This document shows, in pieces, positions 4,237 to 51,862 of a stretch of 64,000 nucleotides of DNA. Origin of the DNA: a virus. The translations under genes were made by a program, and so were the position numbers. Below the pieces are notes generated by a model, which saw only the letters and a program-made list of their open reading frames with translations, searched no databases and was not told where the DNA came from. Where the stretch lies: positions 62,001 to 126,000 of IMG/VR virus record IMGVR_UViG_3300020463_002275; one strand, written 5' to 3'. The stretch's first letter is position 1. Every line of letters starts with the position of its first letter.

Positions 4237-4244
4237 TATTTATT
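4237..4244 (-). promoter_or_regulatory. T4-type late promoter (AATAAATA)
   Basis: The minus strand reads AATAAATACAGT, matching the NATAAATA late promoter motif used with a gp55-type sigma. It overlaps the TAA stop of the giant gene and lies about 20 bases before the 4216 start, so it could drive the 201-residue protein and the fibre genes separately from the long baseplate transcript. Confidence 0.6.
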
Positions 4245-10200: not shown

Positions 10201-13200
10201 ATATGGTTCTCCTACAGCAATCATTTCTCCGTCAGCACTTACACTTATGCTGTCACCAAATCCGGTATAAGCACTTGTAGAATTCCAATCAAAGTCTGCG
10301 CCTTGAGGCAACATAGAACTATTATCTTCATATGGTGGTTGGATAATTTGAGATACAGTCATTTGTCCTTCAGGCAATCTTCTATATACAACAATTACAC
10401 GCTCACCTGTACTGTCATTACCTTGTATTCTAGAACTTACAACTAAAACCTCTCCATCTTTAGATTGATCAAACTGTCTTGCAAAATTTATTACACCAAA
10501 TTCTGGATCAAAAACTTCTTCGCCAATGATTGCATTAGTTCCATTTGTAGGCACAAAGCCAACATGTGCAGTACCATCAGTAACTGATTCCCAATCTGCT
10601 GGAATAAATGCACTTCCACTAGCAATATTTCTTAATGCTTTGTAAAGTTTATCTTGATATTCTACAATTTCATTTTGCTTATAAAATACTGATGAACTAA
10701 AATTACCTCTGAACTCAGGATCAATATCTAATTGCCAGTTATATGTTTCAAGAACACCATTTTTTGTTTCAGTTCCATTTTTGATAAAATGTATACTTCC
10801 TGCATTATTTTGAGCACCTGCACCTCTAGATGCTACACTCAATCTATATAAATTTCCTTCTTGTGTAAATTGTACTTCGTCGCCAAGTTTTACATGTGAT
10901 TTTCTTTCAGGCACTGTGTAATGATTTTGAACTTTAAATTGTATCTGTTCATTTAGTTCGTAAACACTAAACATACCCTCTGCAGTCAATCCACTTGTTT
11001 GAGTACCATTTAAATTTGAAACTGGTATGCTAGTTACTTGATCCCAATCTCTATTATTTGATGCTGGAATATTGGCTTCTCTTGGTACGCCTTGTAGAGT
11101 TGTTTCATCGAAGAAAAAGTATTCAATATCTGTTAATTCACTAACTGACGCATCTGGAAAATTAGTATCTTCTTCTAAAACAATAATTTTACCTATACGT
11201 GTGCCTTCTAAACTAACACCGTCTATTCTACCCATATTACGTTTCACAGATCCACGCACACGGAATATGTCTGCGTCTTCGTTATGGTTGTTACCTTTAC
11301 TCCAAGTACCTGTAATATTCTTAACATAAATTCTTACACTGTTAAACTGCCTTTTGTAAAAAGTTATTAATGCAGTTGCACCTGTTACGGTATCTTCAAC
11401 AGTATCGCCAACAATAGGTTCAAAAGGTAATTGATTTGCTTGGTCAAATTCGTCAAAAGTAAAATCTATGTAGCCATCCCACAAATCATAGACTGTGTGT
11501 TCTTTGTTAAACAACGTAGTACTCATTGCTGTATCTGTAAAATTAGTATTACCACTAACATTATCTACAACCATTTTAAATTTACTACCAATACTTAATG
11601 TATCAGTAAAAATTTTTCCACCTCTTACTGTCCATAAAGGACTAGATTGTAATGCAAATACTTCTAAAGGATCACCTTCGTAAGTTAGTGTTTGTGCAAA
11701 AGATGCTTGATCCATTAGACTTAAAGTTGCTCCTGAATTGTTAGCATCATCAATTGCTTGTTGTTTTGTTGCAGTGATATTGTAATAAAAATTAGGTGTA
11801 GTTCTTCCACTTGCCGCTGTAAGCAAGTCTACATAAACTAAGCCATGTCCTGGATCTACAAAAGTATTTGTGCTATCTGCTGAAGTAGTATATGCTGGTG
11901 TATCTATCCACCAATAACCACCTAATTGATTAAGAACGTTTACGTAATCTTCTGTGTAATCTCCAATACGAATTGTTCCGACAAACAAACTTCCTGAGGT
12001 AGCAAAAGTTCCATTTACATTAGATAGATATACTGTACATGTTGTCAAATCGTTTGCGACATAAACTATTTCACCACTTGCAACACTGCTTGAAATAATA
12101 TCACCTATTGCTGGTAGATTAACAAAATTTTCTATAACAAGAACATTATCAACTTTGTATTTTATTTCGTGTTTGTCACTTAAAAATGCACCTGTGATTG
12201 CAGGGAATTCTCCATCAAAAGGTTGAACATCTACAGAATCACCTTGTAAATTTAATTTACTATAGTTATTCCATGCTAATACAATCTCATCACCTACTGC
12301 ACTTCCTTCATATGCATTAATTGGTGCTCTTATCAACATGTGACTTACACCAAAACTATTATTAATTTTATAATCAGCAGTTTGTAATAAATTAATTAAT
12401 GTACTATCACTTTCAGAAACAATATCTATATAAGAATCAAAACTACTAAAAGATATTGCTCCTGTAGCAGGATCTATATTTTGTATTGCTTTATATAAAT
12501 TAGGACCGTATTTTACAATTTGTTGTTTTGTATAAGCAACTCCTTGTTTGTATTCTCCTTGATAAAAACTGTATGTGTTTGATGCTTGTGGAGAACCTAC
12601 TGCAAGAAATTTGCCGTCTGGACTTAGAGCGACACTTTCACCAAATTGCATTGATGTAGAAAATGTGCTACCATCATAAGCATCAGCAACATTAACAGGT
12701 GCTGAAATAATTTGATCTAAAACGTAATTTGTACTGTCATTTGGTCTTACGTAAATGTGTACTTCGCCGTTACCTTTGAAAGGAATACCAACTGCCATTT
12801 TTGTGTTTGCATCATTTACACTAATAGCATGTCCAAAACCATGTTGAGTGCTATCTAAACTAAGTGAACTTAAAACTTTTTGATGTTCTGAGTATACTGG
12901 TTTATTTTTCAGTACAGTCCATTTACCATTATCGTCATCATCGATCCAAACTAATTCATTGCTAGATAAATTTGCAGTGATATTTGTATTTGCATCATCA
13001 ACTGTTTTTGTTCTTTGGCTTGTAAATATAGTTATTGTGCCTTTGATAGTGACTGTATCATCTATCTCTAGCCAGTCTGATTTATCGCTTTCAAACGTGA
13101 CTTTATTACCTTCAACTTTAGTTGCTTTGTAAAATCCGTCTAAAGTAGTCAATGCAGTTGTGTTAGCATTAGTAATTCCAAATATATCTCCTACTGCAAT

Positions 13201-16200
13201 GTCTCTTGCAGTAAAATTCATATCTAATGTTATTTCACTACCAACTGGTGTTGCTTTTTCTATTCTTAAATTTGTTTCAGTGTGTTGTAGTACGTTCCAA
13301 GTTTGGTTATCTGTTGCTACCCATATATAATCATTTTTATTAATATCGTCAATACTAAATCCTAGTATTCCGTCCTTTGTTAAAACTGCACGACTAACAT
13401 CTTCACCAGTTACATATCCTACTGTTCTTACATATTCTTCGTTGGTGTATTTTGTAGGTATTTTATTAATATCATAATTTTCAGGTTTTAAAAATACATC
13501 ATAGTTAGGTATTCTATAAATTAAGTCTGTAGGAGCACTAGGTAATGTCTCAACTAGTTCTATTGGTTGTGGACTTAGTTTAAATTTTGATTCATCTAGT
13601 TGCCATTCTATTTCCTCAAAATTTGTAGTACTTCCGTATTGATTATTTTTTACTGCCCATTCTTCATAAAAGTCAACTGATTCTTTATCAGCACTTGCTA
13701 GTGCATCAAACAGTTTGTCAACACTATTACGTGATCCTTTATCTGCAATAAATCCTTGATAAAATTTATATTGCGATACATCATCATTAATAATATTTTC
13801 TAAATATTGTCGCTTTTGATAGCCAACTAAATGCTGTGCAAGCCTTTGTTGCTCGTTATCAAAATTATCACTATCTAAATCATAAAAATCAGTAAACTGA
13901 TTTATTCTATAATCAAAGTTTGTATAAAGTTTTGTTTCTGGACGTCCGTCTATTCTATTCCATTCGGCAGGAATAAATTTAGGACTACCTGCAATTTTAT
14001 TTTTTGCTGTGTAAAAAAATTCTTTGTAACGCACAGTATCACCAATTGCATAATCTCGATACGCTTGCCATTCTTGTACTTCTGCTTGGTCAAACACAAA
14101 TCCCGGAATATTAAGTGTTCCGTCCCAATTAGCAGTTCTATATCCCATAACCTTAATACGGTCTTGTCTATATCCTGATGCTGGTGAGTAAATTACATCT
14201 TTAAAGTCTGAAGTATTATCAAGTATTGCAACATGTTCTACTTGTACTAAAGGAAGTTGTATGTAATAGATACCGTCTGCTGTATTTGCTAAATTAACAG
14301 CAAATGTATTTCCTTCTCTAGTAAGTCTAGTAAATGTTTCGTCTAATGCTTCTCCTGAACTTGTTTGTAATGAATAATCATAAAAATTATCATACAAATT
14401 ATCAACAACTGCATACGGTCTTGTAAACTTTATTTGATTAGCACTAGGGCTCAATGCAATAATTGTACCTGGCGCCCAATTTTGTGTAGTCCAATATAAG
14501 TATTCTTTAGCACTATATCTCCAATCTTCTACAGTACTTGTGTCTTTATTATAATAATCAAAAGTAAATCCTGCTGTATCAAGTTGTTTTGCATATCCAA
14601 GTATAAAGTCAATGACTTCTTGTATTTCTGTATATATTGTTCCGTATGGAACTTCAGTCACTGTGTTCTCAAAGTTTTTACGGAATAATGCTGTGGCTCC
14701 TCCTCGAATTGGTAATGCTGGAATCTTTACAAATTTTGCGGAATCGAAACTTTGTGTTGAAGTATGATCTTCAGTTACTCTATAGAAACTATTTACGTAT
14801 CTTACATATTTGTCTTCAGTGTATTTTTGATCTTCTTCCCATTCAACAAACGCATCAGTAACTCCACCTACATTTACTGCAACATCATTAGTACGAGGAA
14901 TTGCTTTTTGTATTTTGAAAACTGGATCTGCTTTATCATATCCTCTAATTACAAATCCGTATGGTTGTTTTTCTACAATTACACCGCTGTAAGAAATAGT
15001 TTCAATCGGTGAACTTGTGTTCAAAAATATTTGGTAATTTTCTTTAGGTAAAAATACATTTCCTTTGTTGTAAGGAGTTCTGCTATCTAAAACCAATTTC
15101 ATTTTAGATTGATCTGTAAAAGCACCTAATTTGATACCTAATTGATATTTTAGATTTTTTACTTGTTCTTTATAATCTTTAGTCGAAATATTGCTGTTAG
15201 ATAATGTATAATTTATTATATAATCAACTAGTCCACTTGTATAAACTCTTTGTGTGTCGCTGTATACATTACTAAAAACTAAATCAGCCAATGATATAGA
15301 ACGCTTGTTTTCATTGTAAACAAATTGACCTGCAATATTTTTACTAATCCTTGATATATCCCAAGCCATAGACATAACTTTTGCAGGTTGATTCAGTAAC
15401 CATGATTTGATAAGACTAAAAGCATAGTCACTACTATTTCTCCATGCATTCTCTGTAGGAGCATGATCACCAAATTTAAAACCTAGTTTTGTATACGATG
15501 CAATATATTCTTTAGCGTATTTTGATTGTAATGGACTTAATAGATTTCCGTCTTCGTCAACAGGAATATGATTAGTAAGTCCCGGTCTTGCATATTGTTC
15601 TAAAAATTTAGGTGCTTTGTTAGGTTCAGCAACTTTACCTTCTTCTAAATCTTCCCAAAGGATTAAATTATCTTTGGTATATGGTGCTGGACCATAAACT
15701 GAGTTCCACCACGTTGGTTTATCTGTAAAGCCTAGCATCTTCCACGGAGTTGTATGCGGAGTATCAGTATCGTATGCATTTCTGTAAACTGAACGCCAAA
15801 AACCTGTAAGTGCTTCGCCATTAGGTCCAGACATATATGAATAATTGTATGTGAAACTATCAGTTAATTCATAAAAGTTATTTGATGTATAATCTAAACC
15901 ACCTAACGATTCGTTCCATTTTACAAAGTCACTTAGTAATACTTTATTAATATTTGTTAAATTAAATTTAGTATTTCTATATGCTCCAGGAAGGAAATCA
16001 TGTATATCTAATTTTTCAGTATTATAATCAATTTTAATATTATTATAAATTCTTCTTTCTAAATCTAATAATAAATTATCTCTATAATCATTAAACGCAA
16101 TAGTTCTACTACCGTCGTGTCCTATAATAATTTTTGTTGGTGTTCTATAACTATCGTCTGTGATAATTTCAGGTACAAACGAAGGATACAAACCTAACTT

Positions 16201-19125: not shown

Positions 19126-22100
19126 TAGTAACCATATCCTCCACCGCTGTTGCCGCCGCCACTGTTGCTACTGCTTGAACTACTGCTTGAACTACTGCTT
19201 GAACTACTGCTTGAACTTGTACTACTTGACATAGCACCTGTAGAACTTACAGAACCTGCTGGAGATGCAGAACTTGTAACACCTGTATTAAGTGTTTCTT
19301 GACTTGCTGTAATAACATTGCCTGTTGCTCTTAGTCTACTTGCTGTAATTGCATCTATTATTTCAACATTTTCAACTGTTGCTGAACTTATAAAAATTTC
19401 ATTAGATTCAGATTTAATTTCATATAAACTACCAAATGCTTGACTTTGCTCATTTGGTACAATTACAATACTAACAATATCAGGAGTCATTTGATTCATG
19501 ATATATGTTGACAATTCACTAAAGTAAAAACTTTCGCCAAATTCCCAATTATCTAAATTAAAGTAAATGTTAATTGCTTCAATTATTCTTGATTTAATAT
19601 CGTTATTGTTTGTAACTACGTCTGGATTAGTTACAACTTTAAATGTTGCTTGCAAACTAGTCTCCGCTGATGAACCAAATAAAGGTTTATACTTTACAGG
19701 ATGATAAATTATTTCGTCACTTATACTTTTAATTTTATCTAATTCTGCACCATATGTTCTATACATTTCATCACTGCTTGGTGGTAGAGGTTCTGTTAAT
19801 CTATCGCCTGCTAAGAATTGTCTATATTGTGCATCATATGTGCGTGTTAATAAGTATGAATCCATAATGTTACTTGCGGCTGGGTCAATTCTTTGATTAT
19901 AATCTGCACTATGCAAGTATCTAAATTTTAATCCGGATCGACCAGTATAACCTCTATAATCTTTTGTAAGTTCTAAGTTTTTCTTAGTAACATCTAATTT
20001 ATAAAATAACTCAGTATCCATTACAAAGAAAACCTGTCCTGCTGTATATTGACTATATGCTCCTACTGCACCTACACTTGCTTTTACTTTTATACCTTCT
20101 ATTGCATTATCTACATATCTATAATCTTCTACGCCATCGCTAGTAGTATATTTCTTTTGAAATATGTATTTTGTTTCAGGATTAACAGTCTCAGCAACAA
20201 TATCAATAAATCCTTCTGGATTGTCAATAACACCATCATCATCTTCGTCAAAGAAACTTATTTCAATACGCTTGCTATCAACATAGCCTTCAGCATCTCT
20301 ATACTCTTTAACAATTTCCCAATCGTAACTAATGTTAAATGGATCAGATACATCTGGTTTATTATTAACATTTAATACTTCAATTTTATCTTTTATAATT
20401 TTTCCAGATTTGTTATCATAAATTTTATTTGTGCTATCGTAATAGAACTTTATTTCTTTATCACTTTCAAATACATATCTTAATGTTCTGTACGTAATAT
20501 CATATCTTTCGCCATCGGTTTTAAAATACAAAAGCCAACTTGCATCTAAATTTTGATTGCTAGAATCACCTGTTTTACCTGTACTAAAATTACTTACACT
20601 ATCTAAATTGGCTTCAGTTATAATTCTCCATTGTTGTGTTTCTACATCATAACGCAAACCAAATGTGTTTGTTGCAAACGCTTGGTCGACAACTTGTGTT
20701 TTTACAGCGTCTGTAATTACATTGGCTAGTTTTGGTCTCACTTCTTGTAAAATTGCTCCTGTAGGAATATTATCATTTAATACAATAGGACCTAAACCAG
20801 TAGAACCTACTACAGTACCATCTCCGCCAACACTAATAATTTTGGTCCAAATATAATCAATTGCATTAGGATGATCTAAAGCACCTGCCATTAATCCATG
20901 TTCATTATTTTTCATAAAATGAAAACCTGTCGGTGCAACAAATTTTACAAGTGTTCCTGCTTTGATAAATCTTAAATTATTTGCTGTGAAGCCGCCTACT
21001 TTAAATTTAATATCATTAGTATCACTAATAAATCCTGTACTACGATTTGTATCTTGTGTTGAACTATTCCATTTAACTCCAAGATCTGCTGTAATAATTT
21101 TAGTAAAATTTTCTAAATAGTAATTGTAAACTTTTCTATCTCTAATAATAGGTTCTATTGTATTTGTTATAGCACTTTCAATATCAGTTGTTGTTACAAA
21201 GTTAAAAGTTGTCTTTAAATTTTTTGTTTCTTTGTAAATTAACCCATCGTTCCCAAATAAGTTTGTGCTTGAATACTTTCCTGTTGAATCTATTAAGTCA
21301 AAGTATCTGCTTATTCCACTAGCATTTCTATTAACTGTTTTTACTTTGACTATTTCTTGGCTTACACCTAATGGGGCAACATTATAATCCTCAGCAGTTA
21401 CCATTCTATTTTGTGTATAGTAAGTAGCAGGCGCATTTGCTTTAATGCTTTCGTTTGTCTCACTTAAACTACTATTTGAAATTGTATATTTTAATTGTAG
21501 TGTTAAATTAAGTGTTTCAGGCACACCAAATTCACTCAAGTAAGGTATTTGTATTTGGATACCTGTCATTTCACTTGGCTTAATTGTATACCTTTTATTT
21601 GCACTAGTTCTATATACAACTTTAAATCTACCTTGCGGTAAATTTCCAAAAACTCCGTCACTAAAAACTAAACTAATTCTATCTTGTACTCTTGTAAGAA
21701 CAGAATATAAATTTTTAATATTTTTGTTTAAACTATTGTAAATTACATTGTTGCCTTCAACTGAACTAACCTTTGTCCAATATTCATTTTCTCGACCGTT
21801 CTCATCTAATTTAAATAACCAAACATCTTTATCATTAATATCAGTTGCATCAATATCAACTTTTTGATTAGCACTAGGATTATTAACTGTAAACTGACCA
21901 TCATCTAATGATCCTTGTTTAAACGTGCAAAAAAATCCTGTGTTAGTACTTGCCGGTCCTTGCCCGTCATTTTTATATAAACATGCAAAACTGTTTCCAA
22001 CTAAAGGAATTTCTTCTTCAATATCATTTTCTACAATATCACTACTTACAACTTCAAAAGGTAAACTTTGTCCTTCAACAACTTTTGAAAAAGAATATTT

Positions 22101-33054: not shown

Positions 33055-34823
33055 TACGAATTAAAGATTTAACCGTAAAAAACTTTATGAGTGTGGGCAA
33101 CCAGACTCAGGCTGTTGACTTTAACAAAGAACAATTAACACTTGTATTAGGTGAAAACTTAGATCAAGGCGGAGATGATAACGGTTCACGTAACGGTACA
33201 GGTAAAACAACAATAATTAACGCATTAAGTTATGCGTTATATGGCATGGCGTTAACAAATATTAAACGCAACAACTTAATTAACAAAACTAACAGCAAAG
33301 GTATGTTAGTTTCTCTTGATTTTGAAAAAGATGGAGTTGATTATCGAATAGAAAGAGGACGTTCTCCCAATGTTTTAAAGTTTTATATTAATAATCAAGA
33401 ACAAGAAATGCTAGATGAGTCGCAAGGCGATAGTCGTAAGACACAAGCAGACATAAATGACCTACTAGGCATGAGTCACGACATGTTTAAACATGTTGTT
33501 GCACTAAACACTTACACAGAGCCATTTCTTAGTATGCGTCAAAACGATCAACGTGCTATTATCGAACAGTTACTAGGTATTACTATACTTTCTGAAAAAG
33601 CAGAAAAACTAAAAGACGGTGTTAGGCAAACCAAAGAAACTATTACACAAGAAACACTTAAAATCGAAGCAATACAAACATCAAATAGTAAAATAGAAGA
33701 TACTATTACAAATTTACAAAGTACGCAACGTGCTTGGCTTTCTAAAAAACAACAAGATGCAGACAAATTAATTACAGCAATCGACGAATTAGAACACTTA
33801 GACATAGATAGTGAACTAACTGCACACGAAAAACTTACACACTGGAACGAACATAACAATGCTATTTTGGCTCTTAGGAAAGAATTAAGCACACTAGAGC
33901 CAGCACTACAACGTGCAGACAATACTGTTGAAAAAGTTAATAAAGATATCGCAGAATTAGAAAATGCTAAGTGTTATACATGTGGGCAAGAACTACATGC
34001 AGATAAAAAAGACGAAATTACTGAGAGAAAAAATAAAGAACTTGAAGATGCTATTTCATATCAATCCGAGATAGCAGAAAAAATTCAAGGTGTTATACAA
34101 GGTATTAAAGACATAGGTGACATTAACGGTAAGCCTACTACATTTTATGAAACTGCAAAAGAAGCATATGAACATAGGCAAAATGTTGACAGTTTGAAAA
34201 CTGCATTAAAGAATAAACAAGACGAAGTTGATCCTTATCAAACACAAATTGATGAACTTAATAACACAGCAATGCAAGAACTAGACTATAGTGCAATAAA
34301 TGAATTAACAAGTTATAAAGACCATCAAGAGTTTTTACTAAAGTTACTTACAAACAAAGATTCGTTTATACGTAAGAAGATTATTGATCAAAATTTAGCA
34401 TACTTAAACAATAGACTTACATATTATTTAGATAAACTTGGACTACCACATCAAGTTGTTTTCCAAAATGATTTAAATGTTGAAATAACACAGTTAGGAC
34501 AAGACTTAGACTTTGATAATTTGTCTAGAGGTGAACGTAATAGACTTATACTCGGTATGAGTTTTGCATTTAGAGATGTTTGGGAAAGTTTATATCAAAA
34601 CATCAACTTATTGTTTATCGATGAGATGATTGATAGCGGTATGGACACCGCAGGAGTTGAAGGTGCGTTGGCTGTACTTAAAAAAATGGGTAGAGAGCGA
34701 AGCAAAAATGTATTTTTGATATCTCATAAAGATGAATTAATTGGAAGAGTAAATCATTTAATGAAAGTTGTAAAAGAAAATGGATTTACGTCTTACGAAA
34801 ACGATATAGAGATAGTAGAATAA
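33051..34823 (+). CDS. 46: Recombination endonuclease ATPase subunit gp46 (Rad50/SbcC family)
   Basis: The 590-residue SMC-type ATPase has the Walker A GSRNGTGKTT near residue 46, long coiled-coil arms (about 175-270 and 325-420) flanking a zinc-hook Cys pair CYTCGQ near 308, the ABC signature LSRGERNRL near 482, Walker B NLLFIDEMID near 520, and the H-loop SHKDEL near 562. This is the complete set for Rad50-like proteins and the size is close to T4 gp46 (560 aa). It partners gp47, whose gene overlaps it by four bases. The stop codon overlaps the next ATG, linking it to the SufE-like gene. Confidence 0.95.
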   Translation: MIRIKDLTVKNFMSVGNQTQAVDFNKEQLTLVLGENLDQGGDDNGSRNGTGKTTIINALSYALYGMALTNIKRNNLINKTNSKGMLVSLDFEKDGVDYRIERGRSPNVLKFYINNQEQEMLDESQGDSRKTQADINDLLGMSHDMFKHVVALNTYTEPFLSMRQNDQRAIIEQLLGITILSEKAEKLKDGVRQTKETITQETLKIEAIQTSNSKIEDTITNLQSTQRAWLSKKQQDADKLITAIDELEHLDIDSELTAHEKLTHWNEHNNAILALRKELSTLEPALQRADNTVEKVNKDIAELENAKCYTCGQELHADKKDEITERKNKELEDAISYQSEIAEKIQGVIQGIKDIGDINGKPTTFYETAKEAYEHRQNVDSLKTALKNKQDEVDPYQTQIDELNNTAMQELDYSAINELTSYKDHQEFLLKLLTNKDSFIRKKIIDQNLAYLNNRLTYYLDKLGLPHQVVFQNDLNVEITQLGQDLDFDNLSRGERNRLILGMSFAFRDVWESLYQNINLLFIDEMIDSGMDTAGVEGALAVLKKMGRERSKNVFLISHKDELIGRVNHLMKVVKENGFTSYENDIEIVE

Positions 34824-35227
34824 TGATTTTAGATAAAATCAAAGCACGTGGTGATGAACTTGCTATGTTACAAGGACATGATAGGCTACAGTACTTGGTT
34901 GATTTAGCAAGAGAAGTTGAGCCGTTAGAAGATAAAGACAAAATTGAAGAAAATAAGATAAGAGGTTGTGCAAGTAATCTATGGGTAACTGGAAAACAAA
35001 ACAAAGACGGAACTGTAGAATACAAGCACGACGGTGACGCTTGGATAACAAAAGGAACTGCTAAAGTTATTGTTGATTTAGTAAATGGTGAACGCAAAAG
35101 CGAAGTAGCAAATCTATCATTAGATAGTTTTAAGCCATTGGGCATTAGAGAATTACTAACAATGCAAAGACAAGTAGGATTTGGTAGTTTGATTGAAAGA
35201 ATTATAGGTATAGCAAAACATGGATGA
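34823..35227 (+). CDS. SufE-like Fe-S cluster assembly protein
   Basis: The 134-residue product follows the SufE/CsdE pattern: helical N-terminus (LQGHDRLQYLVDLAREVEPL), then NKIRGCASNLWVTGK with the expected sulphur-accepting Cys at about residue 49, DGDAWITKGTAKVIVDLVNG, and LGIRELLTMQRQVGFGSLIERI. SufE takes persulfide sulphur from the cysteine desulfurase SufS and passes it to the SufBCD scaffold. A host-derived metabolic gene inside the gp47/gp46 operon is unusual. It may support Fe-S enzymes needed in infection; that purpose is inference. Start overlaps the gp46 stop by one base, and its end overlaps the next gene by eight. Confidence 0.85.
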   Translation: MILDKIKARGDELAMLQGHDRLQYLVDLAREVEPLEDKDKIEENKIRGCASNLWVTGKQNKDGTVEYKHDGDAWITKGTAKVIVDLVNGERKSEVANLSLDSFKPLGIRELLTMQRQVGFGSLIERIIGIAKHG

Positions 35228-35417
35228 TACGCACGATCTATTAACAAAAGCATATATGGAGTATTTCAAAGAAAATGAGAATTTTGAAGACCGTGTTTCT
35301 TACAGAACACATAGAGCAAGCAGAGCATGTCTGCGAGAGATAAGAAAATTAGCAAAAACCCGCATGGACGAAATCAATCACAAGTTCAAAACCAAGATCG
35401 AGACCGAAAAAAAATAG
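35220..35417 (+). CDS. Small basic protein of unknown function
   Basis: This 65-residue frame starts inside the 3' end of the SufE-like gene (ATG 35220) and is highly charged. The first half is acidic (MDDTHDLL, FKENENFED) and the second strongly basic (YRTHRASRACLREIRKLAKTR, then a Lys-rich tail). A helix-rich nucleic-acid- or polymerase-binding protein would fit, but no family is recognised. It is real by context: it fills the space between two genes in the same operon with overlapping junctions and typical codon use. It could also be a regulator of its neighbours; the sequence does not decide. Confidence 0.6.
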   Translation: MDDTHDLLTKAYMEYFKENENFEDRVSYRTHRASRACLREIRKLAKTRMDEINHKFKTKIETEKK

Positions 35418-35434
35418 GCCCGGTAAGTACGTTC

Positions 35435-35884
35435 ATGCAATGGACTTATCAGGGTGAACAAATAGACGAAATACCAGAAGAATACGAAGGATTTGTTTAC
35501 CTTATAACCAATAAAAGCACTGGGCAGAAGTACATAGGCAAGAAACTAGCAAAATTTAAAACTACAAAACCACCATTAAAAGGCAAAAAAAATAAAAGAC
35601 GCGGAAAAAAAGAAAGCGACTGGCGTGACTATTGGGGAAGTTCTGATAGATTGCTTGCTGATGTTGCAGAAATAGGCGAACAAAATTTTACTAGAGAAAT
35701 ATTATACCTATGTAAAGGTAGGGGCGAAATGTCCTATATAGAGGCAAGAGAACAATTTGATAGACGAGTCTTAGAAAAAGATGACTACTATAACGGCATT
35801 ATTAATGTGCGAGTAGGTGGATCAGACAAATTAAAAAAGGCATTGCTAGAACATAGCATTAAGGCAAAACACTCCAACACTTAA
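35435..35884 (+). CDS. GIY-YIG-like putative endonuclease
   Basis: The frame is open from 35327 but its first 36 codons overlap the previous gene; ATG 35435 (MQWTYQGEQ) gives a 149-residue protein that begins just before the catalytic motif. GFVYLITNKSTGQKYIGKK matches the GIY-YIG signature (VYL...YIG). It is followed by a Lys/Arg-rich patch (LKGKKNKRRGKKESDWRDYWGSS), FTREILYLC, and an acidic residue in the helix SYIEAREQFDRR. Related small nucleases are common in T4-like phages, either as free-standing homing enzymes or as repair/host-degrading nucleases. It is directly followed by the GC-rich folded RNA region at 35887, so a link with a mobile RNA element is possible but unproven. Confidence 0.72.
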   Translation: MQWTYQGEQIDEIPEEYEGFVYLITNKSTGQKYIGKKLAKFKTTKPPLKGKKNKRRGKKESDWRDYWGSSDRLLADVAEIGEQNFTREILYLCKGRGEMSYIEAREQFDRRVLEKDDYYNGIINVRVGGSDKLKKALLEHSIKAKHSNT

Positions 35885-36356: not shown

Positions 36357-37100
36357 ATGAATGTGCATGAAATAATTTTAGAAGATAGTCGTATAGACGA
36401 AAAACCCACAAGTAGTATTGGTAATTTTGCCAAAAAAATGGCTAGTAAAGTTACAACTGGTGGAATGAGTGCTAGACTTGGTGGAAGTTCTGAAATGGGC
36501 TCTAAAGCAAACCAAATATATAAAGATCTTGCTAGATGGCAAGGTATTAACAGCAAAACCGATAAAAATATGACGGCTCAGGACTTGTCTGCGTTTATGA
36601 AGCAATATAAGTTAGATGCTGGCGGAGTAGATTTGCCCGATGGTGTATTAGGCAAAAAAACTATTGATGCAGTATTAAAAAAAGCGGCCGCAAATGATTT
36701 AACGGGCGGAAACTCGGCTCCATCATCTAAAGTTCCTGGAGGAGCAGGCAGTGGAAGTATTGGAAAAACTTTAGGCGCTTTAGCAAAAGGTGCAGGAGTT
36801 AAAACTCCAAATGTTAAAAGCACAACAACTTCTACATCTACTTCATCAGGTGGTGGATCAGGTGGTGGATCAGGTGGTAGTGACACAACTACAACTACAA
36901 ATGTAAATGTTCAACAACCGGCAGGTGGTCAAGCACAAGGTGGTCAAGCACAAGGTGGAGCAAGCAAACCAGCAAGTGCTCCAACAGCAGATCCTAAAGT
37001 AACTCCTTTAAAAACTAAAGGTGGTATAACACCAGATGTACAAGCAATGTTAGATAAACTGACGCCAACTGAGAAAAAAGCGTTGGCAGGAGCAATATAA
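36357..37100 (+). CDS. Low-complexity putative virion protein with peptidoglycan-binding-like segment
   Basis: The 247-residue protein has a helical N-terminus (MNVHEIILEDSR). From about residues 78 to 112 a segment (LSAFMKQYKLDAGG, then LPDGVLGKKTIDAVLKKA) resembles PG_binding_1 domains (F...Y.L..DGV.G..T..A). A Ser/Thr/Gly/Gln-rich linker with tandem GGQAQGGQAQ follows, then a helical end (MLDKLTPTEKKALAGAI). It is not identifiable by name. Together with the next gene, which it overlaps by one base, it is probably a virion or head-internal protein; several L-x-E tripeptides could be gp21 cleavage sites, but that is conjecture. Ribosome binding site AAGGATG precedes the start. Confidence 0.6.
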   Translation: MNVHEIILEDSRIDEKPTSSIGNFAKKMASKVTTGGMSARLGGSSEMGSKANQIYKDLARWQGINSKTDKNMTAQDLSAFMKQYKLDAGGVDLPDGVLGKKTIDAVLKKAAANDLTGGNSAPSSKVPGGAGSGSIGKTLGALAKGAGVKTPNVKSTTTSTSTSSGGGSGGGSGGSDTTTTTNVNVQQPAGGQAQGGQAQGGASKPASAPTADPKVTPLKTKGGITPDVQAMLDKLTPTEKKALAGAI

Positions 37101-39172
37101 TGAAACTGCAAGAAGTAACTTCCTACAATTTAAAGTCAACAACTATACTTAATGAAGGTTGGCAAGACTTAACAGAATCACAAAGAATATATTTAGGCCG
37201 TTGGGAGAGAGAACTTTGGCCTTTGTTAGAAGAATATGTAAAAGTAGCAGAAGCAACACTTACTGTTGATCAGATACAAGATATTTTTAAAGGTGCAGAA
37301 GCACAAGCAAATGCAGATGGCGACAACAGAAACTTATTAGGTAAAGCAGGCGCAGGAGCGGCCGCAGTTGCAAAACTACCTGTAGATATTGCTAAAAAAG
37401 TTGATGCTAAAATTAATGAACTTGGTAAAATGGCACAAAATGCAGGCCCTGTTAAAAACATGGATGCAAAGTTTGAAGAACTTAAAAAGAAAATAGGCGA
37501 CAGCGATTCAAAAATTTCCGCAGGAATAAAAAAAGTAAGTGATTGGGCAAAAGAAAATCCAGGCAAAGCAAGTGTAGCAGTAGGTATCCTTACAGCAGTA
37601 GCGGCTTTTGCAGGCGGACCAATGGGTGGTGCGGCCGCAGGTTTAATTTTACGTTCAACAAAAGAATTATTACAAGGCGAAAAACTTTCAGGTGCAATAG
37701 GCAAGTCAGTTAAGACAGCCGCTTATGGTGCTATTGCAGGTTGGGCATTAGAAGGCATTGGCGATTGGATGGAAGGCATTAGAGCAGAAGCAGTTCCATT
37801 TGATAAAGCAGAAGGATTGACTACAGTAAAAGTTGACTTTACTAAAACTTTAAGTGGTTGGGGATTTGAACACGAACAAAATTTAGTTAGTATGGTTGTT
37901 CCAGACAGTCAAGCAGGCGAGTTTGTTGAAATGGTTGAGAAGATGCGTGGGTTAGTAAACTCAGGCAATGATTCAGATGGTATTAGAGTGTTTAATAAAC
38001 TTTGGGCATTTACAAAATCATTTGACAAAGCAGAATTTTTAGACAACATGAATGTAACAAACCAAATTGCTAAGTCTGTTGCACAAGCCAACGATACAGC
38101 ATTACAAGCCATGACAGCAGTCAATGATGGTCTGTCTGCTATTGCACAAGGTAGTATGCAAACAGTTGATGATCCAGCAAAAGCCAAAGGCAAAATGCAA
38201 GTTGGCGGTAAGCCAGTTGAACCAGAGCAAGGCGAATTAGATCTTAAAGGTGGCGGTGCTCCGGCAAAAGCAGAAGCACTTGACATGGAGGAACGTTTTG
38301 AACAATTTCTAACAGAAGCAGAACCTGCACAAGGCGAACTAGGTTTAGATAATCCAAACACAGCAGGAGCCAAAGCAAAGCGTGGTTTAGGAAACTTAGC
38401 AAAAGGTGCATTAGGTGCAATTAAAGGAGCGGCTGGCAAAATAAAAGCAGGCGCAAAAGAATTAGGCAGTGCAGTAAGTGCAAAAAAACTTAACAAGGCA
38501 TGGAAAGCGGCAGGCGAACCTACAGATTCAGCAAGTATTATGAATATATTAGGAGATGCCGGTCTATCAAATGATCAGATTGCAACTATTGGTCAAACAG
38601 CAAAAGTTGATCTAAAGCCAGGTGCTAAATCAGATGAAAAACCAGCAGAGCCAAAAGCAGATGCGACTGCTCCAGCAAGTACTCCAGCAAGTGGTGCTTC
38701 AACTGATACTACAACTTCAACTGATACAACTACTTCCTCAGGTGGTGGTGGCGGAGGTGGCTCTAGCAGTACATCAACAGATACTACAACTACAACTTCA
38801 ACAGATGCTCCAGCAGGAGATGCTCCAGCGGCAGATGCTCCAGCAGGCGATGCACCAAAACCGAGTGCAGTTGCTAAAGGCGATACTATGAAAGCCAATG
38901 ATGGTAAAGAGTACAAATGGATGGGTGCTTTGTGGGTAGATGTTGCTACTAATAAACCTATAGGTATTATTCCATCAATGAAACAGGGATTACCTAATCC
39001 TAAATTAGATCCAATCATTGCGGCGGCTAAGAAAGATCCTGAAATGGCAAAAGCAATTAAAAGTCAAGTAATGGCAAAAGGTATTGATGCAGGTACATCA
39101 GGTGCACAAAAAGCGGCACAAGCCGGAGTCAAAGGTACAGAAAAACTTGATGCAAAAGGTATTGGTGCTTAA
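37100..39172 (+). CDS. Large Ala/Gly-rich putative virion protein
   Basis: The 690-residue protein starts MKLQEVTSYNLKSTTILNEG and has a helical domain with a hydrophobic, Gly/Ala-rich segment near residues 152-185 (ASVAVGILTAVAAFAG, GGAAAGLIL). A globular middle includes KTLSGWGFEHEQNLVSMVVPDS near 250-275, and Thr/Ser/Ala/Pro/Gly low-complexity linkers occupy about 520-590. A short C-terminal domain (NDGKEYKWMGALWVDVATNKPIG) follows. The amphipathic and glycine-zipper-like part could insert in a membrane, as in ejected internal proteins. I do not recognise a characterised family. It is paired with the 36357 gene (TAATG overlap) and its stop overlaps tail-to-tail with the minus-strand frame at 39169. 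Alanine runs are written GCGGCCGCA rather than GCAGCA. Confidence 0.65.
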   Translation: MKLQEVTSYNLKSTTILNEGWQDLTESQRIYLGRWERELWPLLEEYVKVAEATLTVDQIQDIFKGAEAQANADGDNRNLLGKAGAGAAAVAKLPVDIAKKVDAKINELGKMAQNAGPVKNMDAKFEELKKKIGDSDSKISAGIKKVSDWAKENPGKASVAVGILTAVAAFAGGPMGGAAAGLILRSTKELLQGEKLSGAIGKSVKTAAYGAIAGWALEGIGDWMEGIRAEAVPFDKAEGLTTVKVDFTKTLSGWGFEHEQNLVSMVVPDSQAGEFVEMVEKMRGLVNSGNDSDGIRVFNKLWAFTKSFDKAEFLDNMNVTNQIAKSVAQANDTALQAMTAVNDGLSAIAQGSMQTVDDPAKAKGKMQVGGKPVEPEQGELDLKGGGAPAKAEALDMEERFEQFLTEAEPAQGELGLDNPNTAGAKAKRGLGNLAKGALGAIKGAAGKIKAGAKELGSAVSAKKLNKAWKAAGEPTDSASIMNILGDAGLSNDQIATIGQTAKVDLKPGAKSDEKPAEPKADATAPASTPASGASTDTTTSTDTTTSSGGGGGGGSSSTSTDTTTTTSTDAPAGDAPAADAPAGDAPKPSAVAKGDTMKANDGKEYKWMGALWVDVATNKPIGIIPSMKQGLPNPKLDPIIAAAKKDPEMAKAIKSQVMAKGIDAGTSGAQKAAQAGVKGTEKLDAKGIGA

Positions 39173-39404
39173 AAAAACGGCATCTGCGTTTTCTTAGCAG
39201 TTTCTAAATTTTCTTTTATTAAATCAGCGATTAGTTTTCTATCTTCAGGACCCATTTGAAATGCTTCGTCCATTGTCATGCTACCACGCATGTACCACAT
39301 AAGTTTGAAAATTTCAGATTTAAACTGTTTGCATTGGCCTTCTAAGTTATTCACCTCTTCTAGGATCTGTTCAATCGGCCAACTGACGATCCTTAGGCGA
39401 AAAA
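39169..39404 (-). CDS. C-terminal extension of gp26 reached by -1 frameshift (GT-type tail assembly chaperone part)
   Basis: This frame encodes a 61-residue stretch from a weak GTG at 39354 (VNNLEGQCKQFKSEIFKLMWYMRGSMT..., ending KKTQMPFF), but it is open without a stop back through 39404 into the gp26 gene. The GTG has no convincing ribosome binding site. Reading it as a -1 continuation of gp26 gives a fusion of about 383 residues, with the linker RLRIVSWPIEQILEE between the two parts. The arrangement copies the G/GT tail assembly chaperones of lambda and Mu: a main protein next to the tape-measure gene and a rarer frameshifted, extended form. The extension is helical and would contact the tape measure. 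Frameshifting is inferred from sequence only. Confidence 0.68.
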
Positions 39405-39405
39405 A
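39362..39405 (-). promoter_or_regulatory. Programmed -1 ribosomal frameshift signal
   Basis: On the minus strand the gp26 codons AAT TTT TTC GCC TAA contain the slippery heptamer T-TTT-TTC (39399-39405). Five bases later begins a hairpin: AGGATC (39388-39393) pairs with GATCCT (39362-39367), and inside it TCAGTT pairs with GATTGA around a GGCC loop, about 12 pairs in all. Slippery site, short spacer, stem and a long open -1 frame are all present, and the zero-frame stop lies six bases past the heptamer. Confidence 0.72.
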
Positions 39406-40319
39406 TTTGATTGATCAAAAACAATTGGAACTTCAAATGTTTCTGGTGCACCTTCTTTAATTTGTTCTTCGCTTGATCTAACTTCCATTGGCGGAACTTG
39501 AAATTCTTTCTTTTGTACTTCGATGTGATCACTTAGTGCTTTAAAAAATGCTTTGTCAGTATTTTCTAAAAACTCAACAATGTGATTTCTATCTGTAACT
39601 ACATCGTCACCAACTTTAATTGAAACAACACTATTAATAACCATGCCTAGTGTAATATCTCTTAGTTTTGTAAATGTAGTATTAAACTGTTTAAGTTTTT
39701 CATCTTCGTCAATTTTATCATTATTAACAAGGGCAAAGATTCTTTGCTCTTCAAATGTTTGCATTGACACTTTACTAAATTCTTTGTAAGTCAAAGGACG
39801 TATAGTAACAGTCAAATCGTTTGTTGTAAATGTATCTATAAATTTTGCACTAGTGTATCTATCTAATACCTGTCTTAAATCAACTGTATAATCTACCGGA
39901 TTTTTAGTTTCAGGTGCTGTAGCAGATATAGTCATATGCTCGCCATAAGAAGCAATTCTGATTGCAATTAAACATGCATCTATATCAAGACTTGGCATGC
40001 CCCAAGCATTTTTGATATTAGGAATACAACTGTGAATTAAGTCAACAGTGGCCTGTCCGCTAAGAAGTGCGTCCGGAGTTTTTAATGCTAGTTCATCTTT
40101 AGCAGTCATAGGCATAACAGGAAGTTCTCCTGTTTCTGTCATATCCAAACTATCTTCTGGATAATATTTTCCACCACTAGGAAGTGTTACATAAATTTTT
40201 GCTTGTCTAAAATGTCCTGCAAGTGGGTTAGGATTTAATTGTTTAGTTTTTTGATTTAACAAAGGATTGACATTATTTCCTTCGTTTTGTTTAAATTGTT
40301 CTGGGTTGAACTCTGGCAT
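39393..40319 (-). CDS. 26: Baseplate hub/tail assembly protein gp26-like
   Basis: The 308-residue protein has the gp26 core: YVTLPSGGKYY, LPVMPMTAKDELALKTPDALLSGQA, VDLIHSCIPNIKNAW, LDIDACLIAIRIASYGE. T4 gp26 (208 aa) is a hub assembly protein. In this longer form the C-terminal half (DLTVTIRPLTYKEFSK...) resembles phage tail assembly chaperones. It lies divergent from the tape-measure gene with only 73 bases between the starts and has its own late promoter (40358-40365). The coding region ends on a run of six T that forms a frameshift site into the next frame. Confidence 0.87.
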   Translation of the reverse strand: MPEFNPEQFKQNEGNNVNPLLNQKTKQLNPNPLAGHFRQAKIYVTLPSGGKYYPEDSLDMTETGELPVMPMTAKDELALKTPDALLSGQATVDLIHSCIPNIKNAWGMPSLDIDACLIAIRIASYGEHMTISATAPETKNPVDYTVDLRQVLDRYTSAKFIDTFTTNDLTVTIRPLTYKEFSKVSMQTFEEQRIFALVNNDKIDEDEKLKQFNTTFTKLRDITLGMVINSVVSIKVGDDVVTDRNHIVEFLENTDKAFFKALSDHIEVQKKEFQVPPMEVRSSEEQIKEGAPETFEVPIVFDQSNFFA

Positions 40320-40392: not shown

Positions 40393-42813
40393 ATGGCAGG
40401 ACCTGTAAAAGGAACGATAGGGCAAGACGAAGTAACCCTAAATGACGCGGCTACAGAAACTACGCTTCTAAAAATACTTGCGGCTATGAAAAAAAGTGGC
40501 GGAAGTGGTGGCGGAGGCGGTGGAGGTGCCGGCGGAGCCAAGAGTTCTGAAGAAAATCTTATGGATATGGCCAAAGCAACTGGCAAAACTACCAAAGAAT
40601 TAGAAGAATTTGAAGAACAAGTAGAAGAAACTAGCAGTATGTTAGCCAGAGGATTCGGGCAAATAAGTGGCATGCTACAAGGATTAGCCCATGAATTTAT
40701 GGGCGGTGCTACATCTATATCAGACTTTTCATCTCACATTACAGGCGCAATATCAGCAATACCAATAGTAGGTCCAGTTCTAGGAGGAGTTTTACAATTA
40801 TTAATCGGAGTTGTTGATAGCAATATTGCAACTTTCAGAGAAATGTCACAAGTAGGTGCTGATTTTGGTAACAGTATATTTGGTGCAAAACTGGCGGCTA
40901 CTCAAGCAGGATTAAGTTTAGAAACTTTTCAAAACGTAGTTACAAGTAATTCTGAATCACTGGCTTTATTTGCAGGAGGCGCAAGTGAAGGTGCGAAACG
41001 CTTTGCACAAATTAGCGGAAATATTCAAAAGACTTTTGGACCCCAGTTTAGTAAACTAGGTATGACAATGGAAGAAACTGCTGAATATACAGCAGATTAT
41101 TTAGAACTACAAACAAGATTAGGTCGTTCGCAGAGAATGACTGATTCACAACTAAGTGCAGGTGTGGCAAACACAGTTTTAGAAATTGATAAACTTGCTA
41201 GAGTTACAGGTAAACGTCGAGATCAAATCATGGAAGAGATGAAAGATAACATGGCAGACAAACGTCTGAAACTTATCTTTAACACCATGGAAGAAGGAGC
41301 ACAAAGAAATCTAAATGGTGTTCTTACAATGATGAATTCTGCAAGTCCTGATTTGAAAGATGCTATAACTGAAATGGTTGCAACGGGCGGTGTTCCATTA
41401 AATGAAATGGGACAAGATTTAATACGTTTAAATCCAAACTTAGCAAAAATGTCAGCAGGATTAAAAGATGGTTCTGTGAGCCAAGAAGACTTTATGGCTG
41501 AAATTAGAAAAACTGCTGAAATGGCAGACAACCTAAGTGATGCACAGAAACAACAGTATTCAACACTTGCGGCAATGGGTAGTAGCGTTGGTAGTGCTAT
41601 AATTGAAATTATAGGAATGAAAAATGCTGGTAAGAATTTAACCAAAGCACAACAAGATCAACTAGCCGCATTTAAATCGAGAGAAAAAGCAACAGCAGAC
41701 TTTGAACGTGTATTACAACAAACAAAAAACAAAATTATGGACGCACTTATTAATAGTGGTGTGTTTGATACTATAGCAACAATGATGGGAGATTTTACAG
41801 CATGGTTAGGAAGTCCAGACGGTATCAAGAGAATAGAAGAATTTACAACTACATTATCTACAAAATTTAAAGAACTATTAGATGCATTTAAATCAGGAAA
41901 CTTAATGCAGTATATTAAAGATATGTTAGCAACAGGACTGTCAGGCTTGGGCGGAATGATAGGCTCTATAATAGGTGGCATTTTTGGTGGTGGTGGAGAT
42001 GATGAAGAATCTGCAGATGGAGCAGGAGGCGAGAAGAAAAAATCAAGCGGTGGATTATTTAGTGGATTAGACGGAGCACTTAGTACCTTAGCAACAATGG
42101 TTGCGGCAGGCGGTGTAGTATATCTTGCAATAAAAGGATTCCAAACATTGTTAAGAGGGTTTGCTAGTCCAATGGTTATATTAGGTGCAGGTGTATTAGC
42201 AGGATTGTTAATTGGTACAGGTGCGGCAATTAGACTTGCAGGTGACGGAATTAGTGCGGCTGGAGACGGTGTTGAAAAAATGGCGGCTGGCGTAGAACGC
42301 ATGTCGGAAGTTAAAGACACAGCCAATTTAGCAAACGTTGCTGAATCACTAGGTCAATTAGGTAGTGCAATGCTAGGATTGGCCGCAGGCGGAGTATTAG
42401 ATAGTATTGCTAGTTTCTTTGGTGCTAGTTCTCCATTCGATAAAATGGTTGACGGTATCAATAAATTTGCTGGTATTGATGGTACAGCAGTTGAAAACTT
42501 AGTAGCATCATCAGGTGGATTACAAGGTTTGAAAGCATTCGCAGATGACTTAAATGCAAAAAATGTTGAAGATTTTGCAGAAGCACTAGACAAATTAGTA
42601 GATCAAATGAAAGATTTGAATGAAGAATTATCCAAAGATAACAACGGATTCTTCAAATCAGGCACAGGACCAAATGCAGGATCCTTTCTTGGAGGCGGAG
42701 ATGGTGGTGGAGGGCTAAGTAATGTTAGTATGCAAACCCTTGTCACTCTCATGCGTGAAAATAATAGATTAACTAAGGCTCTTCTTGAGAAGAACCCAGA
42801 GAGTGCATATTAA
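40393..42813 (+). CDS. Tail tape-measure protein (gp29 analogue)
   Basis: The 806-residue protein is mostly helical. It begins with a Gly/Ser-rich run (KKSGGSGGGGGGGAGG). A hydrophobic segment lies near 128-150 (AIPIVGPVLGGVLQLLIGVV), Gly-rich hydrophobic stretches near 515-530 and 575-620 (GMIGSIIGGIFGGGG, VLAGLLIGTGAAIRLAG), and long coiled helices fill the rest. This is the tape-measure profile: a length-setting rod with membrane-active segments, ejected on infection. Length exceeds T4 gp29 (590 aa), which would predict a somewhat longer tail. It is adjacent to, and divergent from, gp26 with its frameshift extension, the classical chaperone/tape-measure pairing. The portal gene follows after nine bases. 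Confidence 0.85.
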   Translation: MAGPVKGTIGQDEVTLNDAATETTLLKILAAMKKSGGSGGGGGGGAGGAKSSEENLMDMAKATGKTTKELEEFEEQVEETSSMLARGFGQISGMLQGLAHEFMGGATSISDFSSHITGAISAIPIVGPVLGGVLQLLIGVVDSNIATFREMSQVGADFGNSIFGAKLAATQAGLSLETFQNVVTSNSESLALFAGGASEGAKRFAQISGNIQKTFGPQFSKLGMTMEETAEYTADYLELQTRLGRSQRMTDSQLSAGVANTVLEIDKLARVTGKRRDQIMEEMKDNMADKRLKLIFNTMEEGAQRNLNGVLTMMNSASPDLKDAITEMVATGGVPLNEMGQDLIRLNPNLAKMSAGLKDGSVSQEDFMAEIRKTAEMADNLSDAQKQQYSTLAAMGSSVGSAIIEIIGMKNAGKNLTKAQQDQLAAFKSREKATADFERVLQQTKNKIMDALINSGVFDTIATMMGDFTAWLGSPDGIKRIEEFTTTLSTKFKELLDAFKSGNLMQYIKDMLATGLSGLGGMIGSIIGGIFGGGGDDEESADGAGGEKKKSSGGLFSGLDGALSTLATMVAAGGVVYLAIKGFQTLLRGFASPMVILGAGVLAGLLIGTGAAIRLAGDGISAAGDGVEKMAAGVERMSEVKDTANLANVAESLGQLGSAMLGLAAGGVLDSIASFFGASSPFDKMVDGINKFAGIDGTAVENLVASSGGLQGLKAFADDLNAKNVEDFAEALDKLVDQMKDLNEELSKDNNGFFKSGTGPNAGSFLGGGDGGGGLSNVSMQTLVTLMRENNRLTKALLEKNPESAY

Positions 42814-50125: not shown

Positions 50126-51862
50126 ATGAATAAAATAATAATGTTAGTCACGGTTCTTACCGTGTTTTTTTGTGGCAGAAGTTTGGCCGAACCTTTAGAA
50201 ATAACAATCACAATCCCTAGAACAGCAAGCGATCTAGCAACCAGCACATACTCGTATGATGTTATGGGTGTTGACACTCCAGTTGAAACTTCCAACGGTG
50301 TAAATATTGTACAAAACGGACCTCCAGGACAATCAAGTAGTTTGTTTATAAGAGGAACAGAAAGTGATCATAGTTTAATTTCATTAAACGGAATTGCAAT
50401 CAAAGACCATAGTACACCAAGCGGAGCAGATGATTTAAGTCAACATAACTTGATAGGAATTGACTATTTGACCGTTATAAAGGGTCCTATGAGCAACACA
50501 CACGGGCCTAATGCGGCAGGTGGTGTTATTGATATGCATTCAAGTACTTATGGAAACAGTTATATTGATGTTAGTATAGGCTCTAATAATCTTATCAGCA
50601 AAGAAATAAGTGTAGTTGATAATAATAAAACTGATAGGCATAATTTTAAAGTTACTGCTAATCAAACAACAACAGATGGTATAAGTGTATACGCTGAAGG
50701 AGAAGAAAAAGATCCACATGAAGCAAATACATTTAATATTGGATATGATTACATAGGAAACAAATACATTCTTAAACTAAACAAAATTAAAGACAAAAAT
50801 AATATGAGTCTTGATAGCGGATCAGCAGATGTATTAAATTATACAGGTGATTGGGAATGGAATAACAACCAAATAGATTTCCAAACCAAAAATACAAGAG
50901 TAGTCCTAAACAATAGTAAACATGATAGAACATATACTAAAAACGGAGTAGTTGACAAATACAACAGTGAAAGTAATACATATCTAACACAACATACATT
51001 CAACAAAGATACATATGATTATTCTGTAGGTTGGGAATACAACGAAGCAAGTGCTGACTTTTCAACAAATATAAACAGTTATCAAAGTAGTGTTAACGAA
51101 AACAGATATACAACTGGATTATTTTTTGAAATAGACAAAGAATATTACATGGGTACTATTTTAAGTTTCAGCAGTAGACTTGATAGTATCAGTGACTTTG
51201 ATAATCAGATAAGTTCTAGAATAGGTATATCACATGATGGTTATAGAGCAAGTTATTCACAAGGTTATAGACTACCAACATTATATGAAATGTATGGTAT
51301 TGACAGTTATGGATATCAAGGTAATACAAATTTAAAATCTGAAGATATAGATTCATATGAAGTAGGATATAGAATGGGCAATTTTGATACTGCATTATTT
51401 TACATAGAAGAATCAAATGCAATTACATATTCTAATTCATCTTATGTAAACGTTGCAGAAGGTGGTGAAAGCAAAGGTGCAGAAGTAAGTTACAGTAGAT
51501 CTATTTTAGGGTATGATCTTGCATCAAATGTTACATATACTGAAGCAAGACTTAATAATGGAAGTGAAAAATTACGTAGACCAACTTGGGTAAATAATTC
51601 TAGTATATCAAAAAATATTAATGATTTGAATTACAAAGTGTCAATGAATTATTATGGTGATCATAAAGACATTGACAGTTCAACATTTAAAACAATTGAT
51701 AAAGATAGTATTACTACTTTTGATTTAGAACTAAATCAACTAATGGAAAACAAAATGTTTTACTTAGGATTATATAATATTACAGATGAAAAATATGAAC
51801 AACCAGACGGTTACAACCAATTGGGAATTAATTTCCAAGCAGGTATTAGAATAACAATGTAA
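50126..51862 (+). CDS. TonB-dependent outer membrane receptor, BtuB-like
   Basis: The 578-residue protein starts with a signal peptide (MNKIIMLVTVLTVFFCGRSLA). The plug domain (about 50-130) has the BtuB-type sequence GQSSSLFIRGTESDHSLISLNGIAI, then DYLTVIKGPMSNTHGPNAAGGVIDM. A 22-strand barrel-like region contains SYSQGYRLPTLYEMYG..., LKSEDIDSYEVGYR and YNITDEKYEQPDGYNQLG, ending GINFQAGIRITM. BtuB family receptors import cobalamin and related compounds with TonB energy. The size is slightly below E. coli BtuB (614 aa) and nothing looks broken. No Shine-Dalgarno sequence precedes the ATG; TATAAAATACAGT lies directly upstream, similar to the late promoter. It shares an operon with the following membrane protein. 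Phages rarely carry such receptors. Confidence 0.88.
   Translation: MNKIIMLVTVLTVFFCGRSLAEPLEITITIPRTASDLATSTYSYDVMGVDTPVETSNGVNIVQNGPPGQSSSLFIRGTESDHSLISLNGIAIKDHSTPSGADDLSQHNLIGIDYLTVIKGPMSNTHGPNAAGGVIDMHSSTYGNSYIDVSIGSNNLISKEISVVDNNKTDRHNFKVTANQTTTDGISVYAEGEEKDPHEANTFNIGYDYIGNKYILKLNKIKDKNNMSLDSGSADVLNYTGDWEWNNNQIDFQTKNTRVVLNNSKHDRTYTKNGVVDKYNSESNTYLTQHTFNKDTYDYSVGWEYNEASADFSTNINSYQSSVNENRYTTGLFFEIDKEYYMGTILSFSSRLDSISDFDNQISSRIGISHDGYRASYSQGYRLPTLYEMYGIDSYGYQGNTNLKSEDIDSYEVGYRMGNFDTALFYIEESNAITYSNSSYVNVAEGGESKGAEVSYSRSILGYDLASNVTYTEARLNNGSEKLRRPTWVNNSSISKNINDLNYKVSMNYYGDHKDIDSSTFKTIDKDSITTFDLELNQLMENKMFYLGLYNITDEKYEQPDGYNQLGINFQAGIRITM

Follow-up and report, generated by a model that had tools for sequence, protein, structure and literature searches.

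Frameshifting of the G-T type was described in a 2016 review as widely conserved among long-tailed phages, with T4 excepted (PMC5009743), and T4 gp26 and gp51 have been tabulated as hub assembly chaperones (PMC3004832). The tail-assembly chaperones (TACs) of T4-like phages were subsequently identified by Vladimirov, Gautam and Davidson (Virology 566:9-15, 2022; PMID 34826709), and, according to papers citing that study, these chaperones (gp26/gp51, or TAC-N/TAC-NC) resemble the locus described here in that the short TAC-N gene ends with a polyT slippery site and a -1 extension gives the long form (PMC12846349), with some T4-like phages carrying one short gene and a separate fused long gene in place of the frameshift (PMC10885494). 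The TAC locus of Vandenendeviridae and Andersonviridae, with its GTTTTT motif, likewise combines a conserved -1 frame with a polyT -1 site where TAC-N ends, but belongs to other families and places its extension just before the tape measure gene (PMC12846349). In cyanophages and vibriophages, a short ORF after gp26 called gp51 is similar to T4 gp51 over its C-terminus alone (Sullivan 2010, PMC3037559); there and in the KVP40 record it is annotated as a separate gene with an ATG at the stop, an ATG that the locus studied here does not have. Lambda gpG/gpGT is alike in having a short form, a low-level -1 extension in overlapping frames and, here putatively, a position near the tape measure gene, but uses another slippery site, and no sequence relation to it was seen. 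Against this background, the gp26 locus analysed here is a strong new example of an arrangement known from other T4-like phages; a sequence-only reading had presented frameshifting as new for the T4 group, a claim overtaken by the 2022 study. What is added is a large lineage without close isolates, the exclusion of separate initiation in part of that lineage, and cases from jumbo phages.

The window, by which we mean the whole 64,000-nucleotide stretch of DNA analysed, covers positions 62001-126000 of a 181,934-base IMG/VR virus record. Profile matches to T4-type head and tail genes place it among T4-like genomes: it encodes the major head protein (phrog_138), portal (phrog_213), late sigma factor, SbcCD and head protease, together with T4-type baseplate wedge and hub proteins. 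The source is an uncultivated marine T4-like phage of a lineage without a close isolate (the best gp26 match among phage records has ~32% identity), and our literature search returned no description of this lineage. Several other genes in the window merit mention. Directly 3' of the major head gene, a 578-aa ORF (50126-51862, plus strand) with a signal-peptide-like start matches the TonB-dependent receptor barrel (PF00593, 3e-25) and plug domain (PF07715, 4e-11), and is kept in 10 IMG/VR contigs at 68-94% identity; an outer-membrane receptor encoded by a phage would be unusual. A SufE-like Fe-S assembly protein (34823-35227, plus strand; PF02657, 3e-28), likely an auxiliary metabolic gene, is followed by a SegE-like GIY-YIG endonuclease (35327-35884, plus strand; PF19835, 4e-35), and a single ORF of 4961 aa occupies 4243-19128 on the minus strand in the tail region.

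The gp26-like protein of 308 aa (39393-40319, minus strand), the putative short form (TAC-N, or G), falls within the T4-type gp26 family, matching PF12322 (T4_baseplate; E=6.6e-13, 49.3 bits, exceeding the curated cut-off of 24.5) and phrog_150 (baseplate hub; E=1.5e-16), and is the sole PF12322 copy in the whole 181.9-kb record. Its AlphaFold2 model (mean pLDDT 86.5) matched baseplate hub proteins in BFVD, including gp26 of Aeromonas phage 25; a PDB fold search of gp26 gave no match. On the minus strand the gene ends ...TCA AAT TTT TTC GCC TAA, and by direct reading the in-frame heptamer T TTT TTC (39399-39405, minus strand; U UUU UUC in the mRNA) fits the canonical -1 pattern X XXY YYZ with re-pairing in both sites. 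The sequence-only reading was right that gp26 ends on this heptamer, at 39405-39399, and in its other coordinates and description, but it had put the zero-frame stop six bases past the heptamer; the TAA (39393-39395, minus strand) starts three bases past it.

Two IMG/VR scans, one with gp26 and one with the -1 peptide as query, yielded 159 loci, a figure in which some contigs are represented twice. Counting the window's own locus, 156 of 160 have both parts, the downstream one lying in the -1 frame. That reading had proposed comparing homologous gp26 loci, and the comparison found slippery site and -1 frame conserved at every one of 100 distinct junctions, which are phylogenetically related and so are not 100 independent observations. 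T TTT TTC is identical across all of these IMG/VR relatives (100/100), and the C following the T6 is kept throughout this window-lineage set (100/100), while the codon 5' of the heptamer varies (AAT, GAT, CAT, ACT) yet ends in T at 100/100. Given how these genes use codons (TTT 71%, TTC 29%; T-ending codons 56-60% for N, H and D), the heptamer would be expected ~12% of the time per lineage. A conserved pair of phenylalanines could leave such a T run behind if the downstream frame encoded a separate small protein, made from its own start or by termination-reinitiation; the heptamer, however, stays unchanged even where synonymous changes are available, and the preceding codon ends in T throughout. 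Nor does the frame break look like a sequencing or assembly error in what is really one ORF: homopolymer runs are error-prone, but the same break with the same heptamer recurs at ~100 different junctions from metagenomes as well as in sequenced isolates such as S-PM2, P-SSM2 and KVP40, and since independent sequences share it we regard this explanation as already refuted and give it practically no credence.

From the heptamer onward, the -1 extension (39169-39405 including its stop, minus strand; TAC-C, or the T domain) reads FFRLRIVSW...KKTQMPFF* from 39405 to 39169, giving 78 codons with the two slippery Phe and 76 new ones, which bears out the earlier description of a -1 frame open for 76 codons to KKTQMPFF; the predicted gp26-T fusion would be ~383 aa. 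The extension is conserved in all relatives read. Across 35 disjoint pairs of relatives, the -1 frame past the gp26 stop has a pN/pS of 0.174 and is free of stops, of which the gp26 frame of the same region has 454, and the -1 frame's differences fall 586 at third, 241 at first and 106 at second codon positions, consistent with a -1 frame under purifying selection for coding. The junction arrangement is far beyond chance, because the heptamer is found at 100/100 against the ~12% expected and the -1 frame combines a pN/pS of 0.17 with an absence of stops. Two features that mark a frameshifted TAC are present here: a slippery site close to where the short gene ends, and a -1 frame that is both open and conserved. 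The T domain is modelled by AF2 as helical (pLDDT 88); its comparison with BFVD structures gave no match, and searches of Pfam and PHROGs returned nothing significant. Position and motif suggest that it is related to the tail of T4 gp51 and to the corresponding domain of cyanophages and KVP40, but profiles match only weakly (single-comparison E 0.015-0.022, with E=0.015 for the gp51 tail specifically). Relative to the T4-like TACs, as described in papers citing the 2022 study, the window's lineage differs in having no start codon near the stop and in its T domain, which has taken on a divergent WYMRGG...TTKKTQMPFF form.

Whether the downstream frame might be translated from its own start bears directly on the separate-protein explanation. 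In the window, the only start before codon 35 of the -1 frame is a GTG at 39354, and, in agreement with the sequence-only reading that the frame alone would need a GTG without a ribosome binding site, it has no spaced Shine-Dalgarno. We rejected this candidate (39352-39354, minus strand), which is present in 7 of 100 relatives and would drop the opening FFR of the -1 peptide, a motif that is invariant although it lies upstream of any start. Before codon 31 of the -1 frame there is no ATG or GTG in 33 of 100 junctions and no ATG, GTG or TTG in 20 of 100, so a separate start cannot explain the frame in those 20, and to judge from sequence the second-start explanation would be excluded for that part of the lineage. 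In several junctions a -1 stop lies directly 5' of the T run, and an SD-like 4-mer stands at the right distance from just 7 of 153 candidate starts. The case for a separate protein comes from other phages: an ATG lies two bases past the gp26 stop in cyanophages, the sequence TAATG is present in KVP40 and 121Q, and the GenBank annotation at these places has gp51 or a small ORF as a gene of its own. The window has no such post-stop ATG, and taking the synonymous constraint, the invariant FFR and the scarcity of SD-like motifs together, we consider a separate protein improbable here. Relatives with an ATG and a ribosome binding site for the downstream frame had been named as evidence against frameshifting; the ATG exists in cyanophages and KVP40, no ribosome binding site was seen for it there, and the window's lineage is unaffected. 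Reinitiation could add a free T domain in cyanophages, KVP40 and 121Q, and the separately annotated gp51 ORFs in cyanophage records are probably incomplete annotation.

Downstream of the slippery site, a candidate stem-loop stimulator (39362-39393, minus strand; loop 39377-39380) pairs 39393-39381 with 39376-39362 after the five-base spacer GCCTA. The spacer agrees with what had been described from the sequence, but the stem has 13 pairs with two bulges rather than 12 pairs. The minimum free energy of the single window sequence is unremarkable (z = -1.0), and the case for the stem therefore rests on comparison. Among 21 members of the window's clade the stem is paired in 82.8% of cells, a figure that falls to 29-45% when the stem is slid, and its covariation score is 0.182 versus 0.120 when shuffled, with 0 of 500 shuffles reaching the real score, although neither control takes out all of the effect of relatedness or of the bias of deriving the structure from the same sequences. 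The outer six pairs are nearly invariant and the inner pairs supply most of the covariation. Across 100 relatives, the 52 nt after the site are more stable than gp26-internal controls (-9.6 versus -6.3 kcal/mol, Wilcoxon p=8e-7). Homologous loci thus support the predicted downstream stimulatory structure in the window's clade, but no clear simple stem was found in the large FFRITLLS-type clade. These observations also bear on whether a fusion might arise by transcriptional rather than ribosomal slippage on the T6. T runs can provoke RNA polymerase slippage, and the resulting constraint on the DNA would look alike; A run of six T, however, is on the short side for transcriptional slippage to be strong, the phasing as T-TTT-TTC suits slippage of tandem tRNAs, every window-lineage junction keeps the C that follows the T6, and the stem is kept at a ribosome-pausing distance in the window's clade, leaving transcriptional slippage very improbable.

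P-SSM2, S-PM2, HTVC008M, KVP40, 121Q, RaK2, PA5oct, Atu_ph07 and Phosso also carry this T6 run with a -1 extension, so that the site is present in 9 of 10 reference phages examined that have the downstream frame, and so do the 32 distinct junctions of cyanophage type that were listed among 82 loci. In a single distant family the heptamer is gone although a downstream frame seems to persist, an outcome named beforehand as contrary to frameshifting that leaves the window's lineage unaffected: a search for a canonical slippery heptamer found none in CBA120 or the other Ackermannviridae, and a weak downstream match persists after gp26. Across Ackermannviridae (loci L281-L295; CBA120 at L176 and L196), a short frame follows gp26 and the junction around ATTTTCATTTAATTTTTGAAATTGATTTA is conserved. 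T4 has no slippery site, its gene 26 ending GAGTTCTTTGAG... and abutting gene 25. T4 gp26 and gp51 both match PF12322 over their full length, gp51 being a second PF12322 protein, and the C-terminal tail of gp51 is homologous to the -1 domain of cyanophages and KVP40 (E=4.5e-9), which occupies the same place as the T domain of the window. A purely positional equation of the downstream frame with gene 51 of T4 was considered and rejected, since gene 26 there borders directly on gene 25 and gene 51 is divergent. What links the two is that gp51 is itself a further copy of PF12322 that carries its tail in frame. T4 has lost the slippery site, its gp26 corresponding to the short form. Frameshifting is reportedly conserved in several T4-like groups, with T4 using genes 26 and 51. 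Our comparison agrees with what later publications hold, namely that the T4 group does use frameshifting and that in some of its phages two genes have taken over instead; in the sequences read here T4 itself is such a replacement case.

We conclude that the gp26 locus very probably makes a short and a long tail-assembly chaperone through -1 slippage at T TTT TTC. The proposal of a -1 frameshift is strongly supported by the conserved heptamer and the selection on the -1 frame, and its assignment as a G/GT-type tail chaperone is supported by the PF12322 family, by the role of T4 gp26 and gp51 as hub assembly chaperones (PMC3004832) and by the published work on T4-like phages. Intracellular slippage and its efficiency are inferred, as is the role as a chaperone. 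Most ribosomes would stop at the TAA and release the 308-aa gp26, while a minority, aided by the downstream stem, would slip -1 on U UUU UUC and read on to produce the gp26-T fusion as the long form. By analogy with lambda gpG/gpGT, the short form would coat the tape measure protein, the added helical domain would recruit tail or hub components, and neither form would stay in the virion.

The tape-measure gene had been placed next door, and an 806-aa structural-protein ORF does adjoin gp26 (40393-42813, plus strand), but it lies on the opposite strand, and its match to phrog_14121 is a generic one to virion structural proteins (E=1.5e-7); the profile search gave no match to a tape measure family. 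It has hydrophobic segments and is opposite in strand to gp26 in 118 of 119 matches, and its assignment as a putative tape measure protein is plausible. The usual order is TAC followed by tape measure gene, whereas here the candidate is transcribed divergently from gp26, a difference from lambda as well. With a T domain diverged from T4 gp51 to near the limit of sequence recognition and a putative tape-measure partner on the opposite strand, the window's lineage might represent a frameshift-only branch of T4-type chaperones outside the earlier surveys, an idea that we advance tentatively and hold at somewhat less than even confidence. On the other side of the locus, two successive plus-strand ORFs (36357-39172) with low-complexity linkers rich in Thr/Ser and glycine abut the -1 frame stop of gp26-T.
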